A stretch of 33,589 nucleotides of DNA from Rubrivivax sp. (lineage in GTDB: Bacteria; Pseudomonadota; Gammaproteobacteria; Burkholderiales; Burkholderiaceae_C): NCBI GenBank assembly GCA_019635285.1, contig JAHBZS010000052.1, forward strand, positions 1 to 33,589, given 5' to 3'. Below, piece by piece: positions 23,733-28,620 of the stretch; the stretch's first letter is position 1; each line of letters starts with the position of its first letter. A program made the position numbers and the translations under genes. The notes under the pieces were generated by a model, which saw only the letters and a list, made by a program, of their open reading frames with translations, ran no database searches and was not told where the DNA came from.

Positions 23733-24061
23733 CAGCGGCACCGCCGAACGCCGCACCGGCCCGTCAGTCGGCCATGGCCCGCATGCCGGGCAGATGAAGG
23801 CTACCGGAGCACCACACCGAGGCAGCCTGCGCGAGCGCCGCCGCCGCGGTACTCGCGCCACCCTTCTTCAAGAAACGTCACCTTTCTTTACATTGCATCA
23901 CAACCGGGCTCCTGTACAAACATCTACAACGTTGATTCAATTGACTTTTCATATATAGGCACATGATTTGCTTGAGTCTTTCGTACCAAAGATGGGGGCG
24001 AAAGCGCGCGAGCCTGCCCCCTTGTGATGGGTGGTTGCGTCTTCGTCTTGGGGGAATCGTC
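23733..24061. other. Long intergenic regulatory region upstream of the dockerin-protein gene
   Basis: About 330 bases without a credible gene. The first 140 are GC-rich and featureless. From about 23880 to 23990 the sequence becomes clearly AT-rich, unlike its surroundings, and holds a sigma-54-type promoter (23956-23972) and an upstream inverted repeat TGTA-N8-TACA (23913-23928) that could bind an activator. The predicted 5' leader (about 23983-24061) contains a GGGGGC/GCCCCC stem (23994-24021) and ends in a strong ribosome site GGGGGA before the ATG. Confidence 0.6.
23956..23972 (+). promoter_or_regulatory. Predicted sigma-54 (RpoN) promoter
   Basis: Reads TAGGCACATGATTTGCT: the invariant GG (23958-23959) and GC (23970-23971) are separated by exactly 10 bases, and the core GGCAC-N5-TTGCT matches the consensus except at two flanking positions. 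The predicted start of transcription is near 23983, about 80 bases before the dockerin-protein ATG. RpoN, with the PrsK/PrsR system, is known to control PEP-CTERM protein genes in floc-forming betaproteobacteria, which fits the next gene pair. Confidence 0.65.
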
Positions 24062-26146
24062 ATGCCGCGTGTGTTGCAAGAGACCGACAGTCTGGGCGCA
24101 GGGTTTGGCACAGCTTGGCGCCTGTCCCGGAAAGTGCTGAAGAGCGTGGCGCTCGCCGTCGTGGCGACGGCCGCCACCGTATCGGCGGTGTCCGCCGAAA
24201 CCTTGCTGATGCCCAAGCGGGATGCGCGCACTACGGCGGACGTCGTCGTCTGGGGCGTCCATACGCAGGCTGCCGGCACGGCCTGCACACTGAATTTCGG
24301 CGATGGATCGGCCGTGCAGAACTGCACCGGGGTCGACCGCTCCTACATCGCCTACCCCCACACCTATGCGATTCAAGGCACGTACACCGTGACCTTGACC
24401 GTGGGCTCGGAGACCGCGACCACGACCGTTCAGGCTTTCAATCCGGCGGCCTTCCCCGGTGGCGGCGCAGCTAGCTTCGAGAACCGCAATCTCGGCATCA
24501 ACATGGCGATCCAGGATGGCTTGCGCTACCTTTGGACCAACCAAAACAATCGCGCAGGTGGTTTCCCCACAAGCACGACGACATTCTGGAACAACTCAGG
24601 GTTTACTTATGCCGACACATCGCTGGTCGTGCTGGCATTCGAGAACCAGGGTTACAGGCTCACCGCCAATGTCGCTCCGACCGGCATCTACGAGAAGTAC
24701 ATCGTCCGCCGCGGGCTCAACTTCGTCGCGAGCCAACTCTTACAGCAACCGCTCTCGGTAACCCCGGCGGGTAACAACCCGTGCGTGGTCTATGTCGACT
24801 GCGTGGGTCTGACGACTGGGAGTGACCAAGGCTACTCCACGGCGCTGGCCATCCTGGGTTTTGCCGGCAGCGGTGCACTCGCTCAGATCAACACCGAGGT
24901 CGCTGGCTACACCAACGGCAAGACCTATGGCGAGATTCTGCAGCGCTTGGTCAATGGACTGATCTGGGGGCAGAACGACAGCGGCAACGGCAGGGGCAGT
25001 TGGGACTACGGCTTCAACAGCACGCGCGGCGACGGCTCCACGCTGGGCTGGGACACCCTTGGCCTGCTTGACGCACGCGCCGCCGGAGCCACCGTTCCAG
25101 CGTGGGTGATCGCTGAGTACACGCTGGGGTTCAATTGCACACTCAACAACGACGGCTCATTCGACTACGTGGCCGATTGCAACGCGGCTGCCTCGAGCAA
25201 CGCGGGCCCGCAGAAGGCTGGCATCGGCCTGCAGGGACTATTTCTCATCGGCGAAACCACGGGCGCCCGCGTCAATGCCGTGAGAAACAACATCAACAGT
25301 TGGTGGAACGGCGCGACCGGGGGCATTGGTAGCAATGACTGGGGCTGCGGTGTTCCCGGCATCTTCTATCCGAACGACTCGAACAAGGGCTGCGCCTACT
25401 CGATGTTCAACAACTTCAAGGGCCTGAAGCTGCAGAACATTGCCACGCTGCCCGGCGTGACACGACCGGCCGGCCCCGGTGCGATACCGGCGAACGACTG
25501 GTACGCCGACTATGAAGATTGGTTGGTCACCAACCAAAGCGCACCCACTACCCCTGCCGGCGGTAGCTGGGGGCCGGTCATGGGTTTCTCATGCTGCGCT
25601 AACGGCGATGCGCTCGAGACCGCGATTGCCGAGTTGATTCTGGCTCCGGTCGCGTTGGTGCCGCCTGACCCAGGTCTCTTCTCTACTGTCGGCCTGAGCC
25701 CCGCCTCGGCGACCAATCCGGTGGGTACCGACCACACGGTCACGGCCTTCACACAGTCCACCAACGGTGCACCGGTGCCGGGCGTGTCGATCAACTTCAA
25801 GGTACTGACGGGGCCCAATGCCGGAAAGACGGGGTCGGGAACGACCGGTGCCGACGGCAAAACGACGTTCACCTACCATGACGATGGTGGCGCCGGCACC
25901 GACACGATCCAAGCGTTCATCGGCACGACGCTGAGTTCGAATCAGGTGACCAAGACCTGGGCCGACGCGGTCGTCGTCTGCGACGTCAACGGCGACGGCA
26001 AGGTGACTCAGGCCGATCTGACGCTGATCCGCGGCAAGAACGGCCGCAACGCCAGCGGCGCGAACGACCCGTACGACCCGAACAAGGACGGGAAGATCAA
26101 CGTGGCCGATGTGCGCTACTGCCAACTGAGGCTGACGCCTCCGTAG
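24062..26146 (+). CDS. Secreted multidomain protein with PKD, toroid-like, Ig-like and dockerin domains
   Basis: A 694-residue exported protein. In order: a signal peptide with an extended basic N-region (hydrophobic 28-45, likely cleavage after VSA45); a PKD-like domain (60-125; NFGDGS, GTYTVTLTV); an alpha/alpha-toroid-like region (140-530) with repeats such as YADTSLVVLAFENQGYR, GYSTALAILGFAGSG, LGWDTLGLLDARAAG and AGIGLQGLFLIGET; an Ig-like bacterial domain (540-632); and a type-I-like dockerin (641-690) with two calcium loops, DVNGDGKVTQAD and DPNKDGKINVAD. It has no PEP-CTERM tail, so it could be held at the surface by the cohesin protein encoded next. No catalytic domain was recognised. 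The ATG at 24062 follows a GGGGGA ribosome site; an earlier in-frame ATG lies upstream of the predicted transcription start. Composition is less GC-rich than neighbouring housekeeping genes. Confidence 0.85.
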   Translation: MPRVLQETDSLGAGFGTAWRLSRKVLKSVALAVVATAATVSAVSAETLLMPKRDARTTADVVVWGVHTQAAGTACTLNFGDGSAVQNCTGVDRSYIAYPHTYAIQGTYTVTLTVGSETATTTVQAFNPAAFPGGGAASFENRNLGINMAIQDGLRYLWTNQNNRAGGFPTSTTTFWNNSGFTYADTSLVVLAFENQGYRLTANVAPTGIYEKYIVRRGLNFVASQLLQQPLSVTPAGNNPCVVYVDCVGLTTGSDQGYSTALAILGFAGSGALAQINTEVAGYTNGKTYGEILQRLVNGLIWGQNDSGNGRGSWDYGFNSTRGDGSTLGWDTLGLLDARAAGATVPAWVIAEYTLGFNCTLNNDGSFDYVADCNAAASSNAGPQKAGIGLQGLFLIGETTGARVNAVRNNINSWWNGATGGIGSNDWGCGVPGIFYPNDSNKGCAYSMFNNFKGLKLQNIATLPGVTRPAGPGAIPANDWYADYEDWLVTNQSAPTTPAGGSWGPVMGFSCCANGDALETAIAELILAPVALVPPDPGLFSTVGLSPASATNPVGTDHTVTAFTQSTNGAPVPGVSINFKVLTGPNAGKTGSGTTGADGKTTFTYHDDGGAGTDTIQAFIGTTLSSNQVTKTWADAVVVCDVNGDGKVTQADLTLIRGKNGRNASGANDPYDPNKDGKINVADVRYCQLRLTPP

Positions 26147-26162
26147 GTTCGGCATAAGCCAA

Positions 26163-26186
26163 CCCCGACACCCCCCGGTGTCGGGG
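26163..26186 (+). terminator. Strong hairpin between dockerin-protein and cohesin-protein genes
   Basis: A perfect 10-bp stem, CCCCGACACC (26163-26172) and GGTGTCGGGG (26177-26186), closes a CCCC loop 17 bases after the stop codon. No T-run follows, so it may be a Rho-type or partial terminator, or an mRNA-stabilising element that sets unequal expression of the two genes. Confidence 0.55.
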
Positions 26187-26269
26187 GGCCAGGCGAAGGC
26201 CCGACCGAGCCCATATCGCTGTATTGTTGTTGGGCGTCTGATCGAATCGATTGAGTGGAGAGCGAAGAC

Positions 26270-26941
26270 ATGAAAAGCATCAAGCAGACCCTCCGCCTGT
26301 GGGCGCTAACCACAACCGCGGCGGCGGCCTTTCTGGGTGTCCAGGCTCAAGCTGCACCGACGGTGAGCATCGACCCGGCCTCGCAAACCATTGCTGCCGT
26401 CGGCGGCACCGCGTCCGTCAACATCGTCGTCAGTGGCTTGACCGACCCGTTGGGAGGATTCGGACTGAATCTCAGCTTCAATGGCGCGATTCTCAAGGGG
26501 CTTAGCTTCACGAACGATCCCGACAGCAAGATGGGCGGTGCGTCTGGCCTCGACATGAGCTGTGGGTTCGACTTCGGCGGCGATCCCTCCACCTGCACCC
26601 CCACCCCGAGCGGATCCTCTCCGCTGGACCTGTTCTTCGTCGCCGATGCAAACTTGGATGAGGCTGAACTCGCGGCGCTGCAGGGAGACACCTTCGTTCT
26701 CGCGACGATCACGTTCGAGGGCTTGGCCAATGGCCTCAGCCCGCTCAGGCTGTCCAATGTAGTTCTGTCCAATTGGAACGGTGACGAGACCATTGCAGGT
26801 GTCGGGACCCGGAACGGAGAGATCTGCGTAGGCGGCAACTGCAATAACGTTCCCGAGCCTGGAAGTATGGTGCTGGTGGGTACGGCATTCGGCGCCTTGG
26901 CGCTGCTGCGTCGCCGCCGGTCGATCTCGTCAGCCTCCTGA
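26270..26941 (+). CDS. Cohesin-like domain protein with PEP-CTERM sorting signal
   Basis: A 223-residue exported protein. A signal peptide (1-29, AQA|AP) precedes a beta-rich domain (31-185) with the cohesin-like opening VSIDPASQTIAAVGGTASVNIVVSGL and GGFGLNLSFNGAILKGLSF. It ends in a full PEP-CTERM signal: VPEPGS (194-199), a hydrophobic helix (200-213) and RRRR (214-217). PEP-CTERM proteins are processed by an exosortase and placed at or beyond the outer surface; no exosortase gene is in this window. The upstream gene encodes a dockerin protein, the expected cohesin partner. The ATG at 26270 was chosen because GTGGAGAG lies 7-8 bases upstream; the frame opens slightly earlier at a GTG within that site. 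Confidence 0.85.
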   Translation: MKSIKQTLRLWALTTTAAAAFLGVQAQAAPTVSIDPASQTIAAVGGTASVNIVVSGLTDPLGGFGLNLSFNGAILKGLSFTNDPDSKMGGASGLDMSCGFDFGGDPSTCTPTPSGSSPLDLFFVADANLDEAELAALQGDTFVLATITFEGLANGLSPLRLSNVVLSNWNGDETIAGVGTRNGEICVGGNCNNVPEPGSMVLVGTAFGALALLRRRRSISSAS

Positions 26942-27085
26942 CAAGTGTCTTGATCGACAGACGACCTCCCGCTTCAGAAGGCAGATCGTCAACAGGCCGT
27001 CGTGCTCGTCGGGTGCTGCCTTTGTGCATCTGACGCCTGGGTCGTGCTCGTCGGCGGAATGGCTTGGTGACGTTCCGCACCTCAG

Positions 27086-27730
27086 ATGACGTTCCGCTCG
27101 ATCGTATTCATTGGCGCAGCGCTCGTTACGATCGGCTCCAGCGCCTGGCTGTTGCTAGACAGCCTTTCACCACCAACAGCGGGGCCATCTGCGGGCAGCG
27201 ATACGGCCCCGCTGCTTGCGCGCCAGGATGAGACGCCAGCGCGGATCCCGGAGGCGGACTCGTCGCTACCGCCAGCGGCGCCAGCTCAGGCCAGCGACGA
27301 TCGCTTCAGGCTGGTTGGTGTGGTTGCGGTGGGCTCGGTGGATGCCAAGTCGTCATCGAATCCCGGCAATGGCTTCGCACTCATATCCGTCGACGGCAAG
27401 CCCGCACGGGCCTTTCATGTAGGCGCCACGGTCGACGGTGACACCGTGCTCACGGCCTTGACGCCGCTCGGCGCCACGCTTGCCTCGCCGCGGGGCGGGG
27501 AAGCGATATCGCTCCAAGTCGCGTCGGCAACCCCCACGTATGCGACCATGCCAGCGCCGGCCCCGCCGCCGGGGACCGGATCGCCCGCAGGTGTTGACAT
27601 GTCGATGCGCCCACCTGCGGAGCAGAAGAATCTGGGTACCAAGCACCCGCCGCTTCCGACGCAACCGGTGCCCGCGACGCAGGTACCCGAAGAATCCGCC
27701 ACGCAGGCCGACGGACGGTGGACGCGCTAG
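27086..27730 (+). CDS. GspC/PulC-like type II secretion inner-membrane protein
   Basis: A 214-residue protein with a short cytoplasmic start, one membrane segment (5-24), a Pro/Ala-rich linker (28-70) and a domain at 73-145 (FRLVGVVAVG, GFALISVDGKPARAFHVGATVDGDTVLTAL in parts) matching the homology region of GspC, which contacts the secretin GspD. It lacks the PDZ or coiled-coil end of full GspC and instead has a Pro/Thr/Gln-rich tail (155-205). No other type II secretion gene is nearby, so it may be an orphan subunit for exporting its neighbours (inference). It is convergent with the next gene (7-base gap). Confidence 0.75.
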   Translation: MTFRSIVFIGAALVTIGSSAWLLLDSLSPPTAGPSAGSDTAPLLARQDETPARIPEADSSLPPAAPAQASDDRFRLVGVVAVGSVDAKSSSNPGNGFALISVDGKPARAFHVGATVDGDTVLTALTPLGATLASPRGGEAISLQVASATPTYATMPAPAPPPGTGSPAGVDMSMRPPAEQKNLGTKHPPLPTQPVPATQVPEESATQADGRWTR

Positions 27731-27737
27731 TCGCGAG

Positions 27738-28007
27738 CTACGACGCGGTCCAGCCGGTGATTGCCACCACCGGCACGATGGCCGTCTCGGTGAACAGCTC
27801 GAAGGGTGCCGCGATGCGCTGTACCGCGTCGATATCGGGAGCCTCCAGCAACGTCACGTTGTGCGAGCGGTCAACGGCCGCCCATTCCCCTCGGATCTTC
27901 ACATCGGCCGGTATGGATGCGTAGAACGCCTTGGCCAGCGCCGCCAGTTCATCGTACTGGGCGGCGCTCAACCCGGCGCGGGTGCGGTTGGTCAGCATGA
28001 ACAGCAT
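27738..28007 (-). CDS. Small DUF3303-like protein
   Basis: An 89-residue protein beginning MLFMLTNRTRAG, with SAAQYDELAALAKAF and a C-terminal AAPFELFTETAIVPVVAI. This layout resembles DUF3303-type dimeric alpha-beta barrel proteins of unknown function. No signal peptide. The ATG at 28007 follows a GAGGAGA/TGAGG purine-rich stretch that overlaps the end of the VTT-protein gene region (4-base gap), so the two are probably cotranscribed. Confidence 0.7.
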   Translation of the reverse strand: MLFMLTNRTRAGLSAAQYDELAALAKAFYASIPADVKIRGEWAAVDRSHNVTLLEAPDIDAVQRIAAPFELFTETAIVPVVAITGWTAS

Positions 28008-28011
28008 GGCC

Positions 28012-28620
28012 TCAGTCTCCTCGATCAGCAATGCGCCGTGTACGGCGCCAAACCCACCAGGCCGCCACGGGCAACAGCATCGGCAACAGCAGCCCCGGGC
28101 CGATCGGCGCGTCAGGCACGAGCTCCGCGCCATTCAGCGCCAGCGCCCCGGCATAGACCGCATTCCCGGATGCGCAGGCCGCGACAAACTGCGACCAGCG
28201 CAGACGCGCGGCTCCTGCCGCAAGCACCACGGCCTCCGCCAGCACGGGGACGGGGCGGCTCAGGAACACCATCGCCAGCGTCGGCGCGGCAGGCAGTTCG
28301 GCCTGCCGCCCGCGCAGCAGCCAACGGCTGACGACATAGGCCAGCAACTGGCCGGCCATCATGCCGGCAAACGCCGTCAGGAAACCCATGCCCAGCCCCA
28401 GACGCGCGCCGAGCATCGTGCCCACGATGCTGGACGGCACCGGCAGCAGCACGTCGGCGGCCAGCAGCATCGAACCGACCCATGCGAAGCGCATGGCATG
28501 GTCGTCCTGTGCGGACAGCCAGCGCTCTCCGGGCAACTCGCCGACAAGCAAGAACGGTAGTGACGAAACACACAGCGCCGCGGCGATCAGCAGACTGGTG
28601 CGCAGGCCTTTGCGTGGCAT
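28012..28620 (-). CDS. VTT-domain (DedA-like) membrane protein
   Basis: A 202-residue membrane protein with about five hydrophobic segments. The central region DVLLPVPSSIVGTMLGARLG, then GFLTAFAGMMAGQLLAYVVSRWL, matches the VTT/SNARE-associated (DedA) fold, including the proline-bearing re-entrant loop. Family members are lipid scramblases or flippases, or affect membrane homeostasis; this one's substrate is unknown. It is divergent from the radical SAM operon, with 83 bases between the two starts. Confidence 0.75.
   Translation of the reverse strand: MPRKGLRTSLLIAAALCVSSLPFLLVGELPGERWLSAQDDHAMRFAWVGSMLLAADVLLPVPSSIVGTMLGARLGLGMGFLTAFAGMMAGQLLAYVVSRWLLRGRQAELPAAPTLAMVFLSRPVPVLAEAVVLAAGAARLRWSQFVAACASGNAVYAGALALNGAELVPDAPIGPGLLLPMLLPVAAWWVWRRTRRIADRGD

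Follow-up and report, generated by a model that had tools for sequence, protein, structure and literature searches.

Cellulosomes, in which dockerin and cohesin modules hold secreted proteins together, use Gram-positive anchors. Outside cellulosomes, cohesin and dockerin domains are described as abundant in anaerobic methanotrophic (ANME) archaea (PMC5244752), and the sulphate-reducing bacterial (SRB) partners of these archaea are described as expressing adjacent cohesin/dockerin domains (PMC10553843). The PEP-CTERM/exosortase system is a different one, and most PEP-CTERM proteins are reported to show, the tail apart, no likeness to known proteins (Haft 2006, PMC1569441). Here we describe a locus with elements of both, found in Rubrivivax sp. 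on contig JAHBZS010000052.1 (assembly GCA_019635285.1). The window, that is, the whole stretch of DNA that was analysed, has a length of 33,589 nucleotides, and the locus consists of a gene for a dockerin protein (24062-26146) followed by a gene for a PEP-CTERM protein with a predicted cohesin fold (26267-26941).

The two genes probably form a co-regulated plug-and-socket display operon, in which the dockerin protein would be held on an exosortase-anchored cohesin. The domains, the fold, the recurrent pairing, the exosortase, the promoter elements and the co-variation of the two proteins, all of them supported by sequence and predicted structure, argue for this reading. An earlier sequence-only reading of the same DNA had proposed a surface complex of three products, including a GspC-like protein. 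Its dockerin/PEP-CTERM cohesin pair in exosortase-positive bacteria was retained on the basis of fold, recurrence, co-variation and promoter, while the membership of the GspC-like protein was not.

Domains of the two proteins

The features of the pair are as follows:
23877..23892, + strand: PEP-CTERM-gene promoter motif 1, presumed PrsR box, GTCACCTTTCTTTACA (bipartite pattern scan; layout as described in PMC1569441)
23957..23972, + strand: sigma-54 -24/-12 element AGGCACATGATTTGCT, 89 nt upstream of the dockerin start codon
24062..26146, + strand: dockerin protein gene, 694 aa, in the order signal peptide (by eye), PKD-like domain, toroid-like body (by eye), Big_1-like domain, dockerin
24266..24430, + strand: PKD-like domain, residues 69-123 (Pfam score under the cut-off)
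25730..25951, + strand: Big_1-like domain, residues 557-630 (Pfam score under the cut-off)
25976..26143, + strand: dockerin module (plug), with calcium loops at 25982-26017 and 26075-26110
26267..26941, + strand: cohesin-fold PEP-CTERM protein gene, 224 aa (putative socket; Pfam, family profile, AlphaFold/Foldseek)
26354..26818, + strand: predicted cohesin-fold domain, residues 30-184 (AlphaFold model, Foldseek, family profile)
26849..26920, + strand: PEP-CTERM sorting tail, residues 195-218 (PF07589)

The Pfam scan matched dockerin type I (PF00404) at residues 641-684 with 27.3 bits against a gathering cut-off of 22.9, which confirmed by hidden Markov model the two-loop dockerin that had been read at the end of gene 24062-26146. 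The two 12-residue calcium loops, each with the D-x-N-x-D ... D pattern, occupy residues 641-652 and 672-683, and Cys640 and Cys687 are invariant across the eight dockerins of set A1. The PKD matches (22.5 and 20.1 bits) and the Big_1 match (20.6 bits) were all under the Pfam cut-offs. The toroid-like body was recognised by eye and is covered by no Pfam or PDB sequence match; the N-terminal signal peptides of the dockerin and PEP-CTERM proteins were likewise judged by eye. The Pfam, NCBIfam and PDB sequence scans found no enzyme domain, in agreement with the earlier claim that the dockerin protein carries no recognisable enzyme. The search against PHROGs gave no match, and the window's dockerin and the cohesin of genome G040 had none among plasmid records.

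The PEP-CTERM tail of the second protein scored 22.7 bits with PF07589 (cut-off 20.7) and is preceded by Cys187 and Cys192, which are invariant in the 13 sequences of set A2. The cohesin profile PF00963 was matched by seven of the 13 family members at E<=1, an E threshold and not the gathering cut-off, with a best value of 8.8e-8. The only PDB sequence match of the window's protein at E<=10 was a cohesin, with a non-significant value of 0.066, and the profile of the 13 family members reached PDB cohesins at 4.1e-10 in a search that also listed a few chance immunoglobulin chains with E above 0.04. In the AlphaFold model (predicted template modelling score, pTM, 0.66), the core blocks have a predicted local distance difference test score (pLDDT) of 88-94 and the loop 94-115 is under 50. 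Foldseek listed 50 PDB matches for this model, every one of them from the entry of a cohesin, a scaffoldin, a cohesin-dockerin pair or a cohesin-like module; the best E was 4.4e-10, and the template modelling (TM) scores were up to 0.77 by target length and about 0.5 by model length. The protein is predicted to have a cohesin fold and to be a member of a cohesin-related family. The cohesin-like domain with a PEP-CTERM anchor named in the sequence-only reading is upheld by the tail, the family profile and the predicted fold, although not by a direct Pfam cohesin match; the objection that no cohesin profile matches holds for the window's protein alone and fails for its family.

Recurrence, regulation and co-variation of the pair

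A set of 198 related genomes was searched with the dockerin profile (E<=1e-6) and the cohesin query (E<=0.001). Dockerin matches were present at 41 places in 29 genomes, and cohesin matches in 28 genomes, some of them through the PEP-CTERM tail alone. At 24 of the 41 places a cohesin-like gene directly adjoins the dockerin gene on the same strand, including genome G015, where two dockerins flank one cohesin gene. At three further places the cohesin-like gene lies 0.7-1.6 kb away, two of these lacking the PEP-CTERM tail and one being on the opposite strand. The cohesin scores are inflated because 12 of the 13 profile sequences are among the 24 places; the cohesin-like genes outside the profile-building set score 5e-8 or better. 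As 824 PEP-CTERM genes were counted over 24 of the 29 dockerin genomes, about 34 in each, adjacency by chance is estimated at about 1-2% if some 4700 genes are assumed per genome. In the window's own bin, the dockerin matches at E<=1 number only two, as do the cohesin relatives at E<=0.001.

A second survey, in which two short dockerin patterns were compared with 84,980 named species, gave 36 loci, seven of them on the same contigs as in the 198-genome set. A cohesin was found downstream in 16 and upstream in four (20 of 36 paired), and another PEP-CTERM protein in 12, of which 11 belong to a non-cohesin family, A4. The hosts of cohesin-paired loci include Methylibium, Rubrivivax, Paucibacter, Aquabacterium, Accumulibacter, Rhodocyclaceae, Alteromonadaceae and Geobacteraceae, and some of the partner tails are variants of PEP. 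A cultured relative, Rubrivivax rivuli KYPY4, has the pair at locus L071. The pair recurs as a feature of exosortase-carrying genomes and is not confined to this one.

Some of the loci have unusual architectures. Very large proteins with the dockerin near the start are encoded 3' of a cohesin-like PEP-CTERM gene at L131:3471-8000 and L140:916-5799, and the L131 giant, the one of the two scanned for domains, has PKD and RHS repeats. At L143:8502-10268 there is a third tandem dockerin gene, whose product has a second loop that departs from the pattern; this gene has no PEP-CTERM gene as its immediate neighbour.

The window's genome encodes XrtA (326 bits, cut-off 208) next to exopolysaccharide (EPS) genes of the XrtA system, as well as PrsR (723.5 bits, cut-off 502.6) on the same contig as XrtA, so the absence of exosortase, which had been named as an objection to the surface complex, does not apply. 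The neighbourhood survey proposed earlier found exosortase in all 29 dockerin genomes versus 88 of the 169 others (117 of 198 overall; Fisher 4.6e-8, uncorrected for kinship).

The promoter of proteobacterial PEP-CTERM genes has been described as a 17-base motif that ends in TTTACA and, after a spacer averaging 62.8 bases, a sigma-54 motif, with a mean of 71 bases to the start (Haft 2006, PMC1569441). In the window, GTCACCTTTCTTTACA begins at 23877, the GG of AGGCACATGATTTGCT follows after 65 bases, and the dockerin start lies about 90 bases further on. The dockerin gene shows the layout of a promoter of the PEP-CTERM regulon (PrsK/PrsR/RpoN). Judged from this layout, the PEP-CTERM promoter sits on a gene without a PEP-CTERM tail; it went unnoticed in the sequence-only reading. 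A scan of 76 sequences, which total 638,463 bases with some overlap and do not include L037 of genome G025, gave 17 sites of the bipartite pattern, spread over 16 of the sequences, versus 0.1 per shuffle; the pattern had been derived from ten of the sequences, which give eight of the 17 sites, the other nine being new. Thirteen sites precede a dockerin gene, one precedes a leading cohesin gene (L095) and three precede the gene before the dockerin gene (L072, L073 and L076). This intervening gene encodes about 370 residues, which resemble a beta-propeller by eye.

Across 39 pairs, with kinship of species not otherwise removed, dockerin similarity correlates with cohesin similarity at r 0.66 and with similarity of the dockerin protein's own body at 0.47; with the body held constant, the correlation with the cohesin is 0.59. 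On these sequence comparisons, the dockerin varies more closely with the cohesin than with the rest of its own protein. The nearest relatives of the window in dockerin and cohesin similarity are contig C43 (0.90 and 0.57) and genome G061 (0.69 and 0.47), whose bodies have no BLAST match to that of the window; the relatives of the window's body, in genomes G069 and G015, have dockerin similarities of 0.57 and 0.56 and cohesin similarities of 0.25 and 0.30. The 39 bodies fall into ten BLAST clusters at the chosen threshold, under which weak links (0.03-0.04) of the window's body to L066, L068 and L078 remain. They include the PKD/RHS-repeat giant and a weakly virginiamycin-lyase-like body.

Contig C43 (L160, L161; the window's own bin, G000) is syntenic with the window, with a DNA identity of 90.8% at the ruvB end, 86.6% and 79.4% in later genes and 75.3% in the dockerin-cohesin stretch. 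Between the two dockerin proteins, BLAST similarity is limited to the last 57 residues (87.7%). Duplication within the genome was rejected as evidence because of this synteny; C43 therefore more probably represents this locus in a relative that fell into the same bin, and it serves as a body-swap comparison only. Outside the pair, C43 is syntenic at 79-91% identity, but it has a different dockerin body; bin G000 may hold two related organisms. BLAST and hhalign found nothing significant between the window and C43 bodies, and their profiles reached nothing among PDB sequences at E<=1. A weak G-W-Y ... D-S-T stretch does align between the two bodies, which may be distantly related toroids. The C43 dockerin protein, too, gave no enzyme domain.

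The dockerins paired with family A4 differ in their residues from those paired with cohesin: Arg at column 47 is present in 39 of 39 cohesin-paired and none of 14 A4-paired dockerins, while Pro 43, Pro 51 and Ser 20 are present in all 14 A4-paired and none of the 39 cohesin-paired ones, these being related sequences and not 53 independent events. The A4 model (pLDDT 87, pTM 0.77) had no cohesin among its 50 listed structure matches; these were for the most part lectin-like, carbohydrate-binding and tail-fibre folds, at TM scores under 0.45. In a sample of 399 genomes of the order only one had a match (E<=1e-15), so the family is patchy. A kinship between A4 and NF033554, a floc protein family, was rejected for want of proof: the 37.6 bits obtained (cut-off 80) lie close to 35.8 bits, a score which another family reaches through its PEP-CTERM tail only. 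A4 may be another kind of dockerin receptor. We tentatively consider a general display system of exosortase-positive Gram-negative bacteria, in which the dockerin would be swapped onto many bodies and the socket would be either a cohesin or the non-cohesin A4, with matched recognition residues.

Proposed mechanism, alternatives and neighbouring features

In the proposed display operon, the PEP-CTERM regulon (PrsK/PrsR, RpoN) would drive both genes, presumably on a single transcript. The presumably secreted protein would be made with the C-terminal dockerin as its sole attachment element, and the PEP-CTERM tail of the single cohesin would be cut by exosortase A, which would move the cohesin to a carrier on the outer surface or in the EPS matrix. 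The calcium-loaded dockerin, calcium presumably being required, would bind the cohesin, and the large body would thereby be held non-covalently on the anchored socket, putatively at the cell surface. The body, in which no enzyme domain was found, would most likely bind a ligand or a matrix polymer.

However, several observations weigh against such an operon. Pfam matched no PF00963 cohesin in the window's own protein. Among the 41 dockerin places, six stand beside A4, two beside another, unrelated PEP-CTERM protein and six have no visible partner, some of these at contig ends (in one, genome G068, a cohesin lies at the start of a different contig); four of the 36 named loci also have no partner. 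The promoter was seen in just 16 of the 76 scanned sequences and most propeller-type dockerin genes have no site, while among 36 dockerin genes a sigma-54 match with at most one mismatch was found in only six (0.32 expected) and with at most two in 14 (3.1 expected). Moreover, shared ancestry inflates the co-variation, the Fisher value and the motif counts.

An alternative with a smaller but real share of plausibility is that the pair binds and the complex, instead of being fixed to the cell, is released into the EPS or floc matrix or acts in the periplasm. The location of the exosortase within an EPS cluster is consistent with this, as is PepA, a PEP-CTERM protein of Aquincola, which is described as increasing bound and decreasing released exopolysaccharide and restoring flocs (PMC9850573).

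It seems unlikely that the three genes act as a single unit for secretion and display, with the GspC-like protein adapting the type II secretion system (T2SS) to its cargo. A GspC-like paralogue does occur near the pair in all three genomes with the window's body type. MYXO-CTERM and GlyGly-CTERM proteins, which are sorted by their C-terminus, are described as exported by the T2SS (PMC11980579), and by analogy the locus may be connected with type II secretion. Against this, the protein is under the GspC cut-offs (T2SSC 20.7 bits versus 27; NF041515 21.3 versus 150), the gene is absent from the syntenic C43 locus, and its strand is that of the pair in the window and the opposite one in G069 and G015. 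Homologues occur in 99 of the 198 genomes and, among the matches listed, lie near the pair only in G000, G069 and G015, which led us to reject a general role and to drop the GspC-like subunit as a regular third member. A second copy in the window's genome lies near a GspH-like gene (62.5 bits, cut-off 80) and had no NCBIfam match at E<=1e-5.

That the two proteins are co-produced and yet each binds itself or some other partner, their adjacency reflecting shared regulation only, is improbable: non-cellulosomal cohesin/dockerin function is called unknown in PMC5244752 and co-variation could stem from common ancestry, but the bin offers hardly any other dockerins or cohesin relatives, the dockerin follows the cohesin and not its own body, and the different partner family A4 goes with different dockerin residues.

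Two further features lie beside the pair, whose genes are separated by 120 bases, with 144 bases to the GspC-like gene:
26164..26185, + strand: predicted intergenic RNA hairpin, also at the syntenic C43 locus
27086..27730, + strand: GspC-like protein gene, an optional neighbour (under family cut-offs)

The hairpin has a z of -1.92 in the window and -2.52 in C43, where the copy has a compensatory pair; it was rejected as a general feature of the pair, with z values of 0.16 and -0.12 in two other loci that were folded. DUF3303 and VTT-domain genes lie downstream (27738-28133 and 28012-28620, both on the - strand) with no visible link to the pair, and a stretch syntenic with this region is also found 3' of the pair in C43.

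Comparison with described systems

In the open-licence PMC literature, no paper was found that joins PEP-CTERM with dockerin or cohesin, although an earlier mention outside it is possible; dockerin and exosortase are mentioned together in one paper, on ANME archaea, in the available parts of the source not as joined in one protein pair. We judge the locus to be an uncommon but recurrent combination of known parts, a non-cellulosomal cohesin-dockerin display anchored by exosortase, in which we infer the binding step. As related bacteria have such pairs with very different bodies on the dockerin, it suggests that a way of retaining exchangeable proteins at the cell surface or within the slime matrix has been overlooked. 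Some PEP-CTERM proteins would thus have a concrete job as sockets for other secreted proteins, and the cohesin-dockerin principle would be extended to exosortase sorting. The role of PEP-CTERM proteins in flocs and biofilms would become testable through defined pairs, which would also be available for surface display in Gram-negative bacteria.

As in the cellulosome of Clostridium and its relatives, a two-calcium-loop dockerin ends a secreted protein and the partner has a predicted cohesin fold. Unlike the cellulosome, the locus has a single cohesin, with an exosortase tail, and lacks a scaffoldin array, and the search for enzyme domains found none; a multi-cohesin scaffoldin and dockerin-bearing glycoside hydrolases, by which a cellulosome is recognised, are not what the single cohesin and the two dockerins of the bin represent. 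The locus shares use outside the cellulosome with the archaeal non-cellulosomal cohesins (Archaeoglobus fulgidus, PDB 2xdh, among the Foldseek matches). For the cohesin/dockerin adhesins of ANME archaea and SRB, the available parts of the sources describe no PEP-CTERM tail or promoter in connection with the cohesin. MYXO-CTERM and GlyGly-CTERM proteins are similar in their C-terminal sorting in Gram-negative bacteria, with a possible exit through the T2SS, but they have other sorting enzymes, and no cohesin-dockerin relay is described in the available parts of the source. The PEP-CTERM/exosortase (EpsH, XrtA) system, together with PepA, shares with the locus the tail, the XrtA EPS cluster and the promoter of motif 1 and sigma-54; what differs here is that the tailed protein is a putative socket for an untailed one, whose gene carries the promoter.

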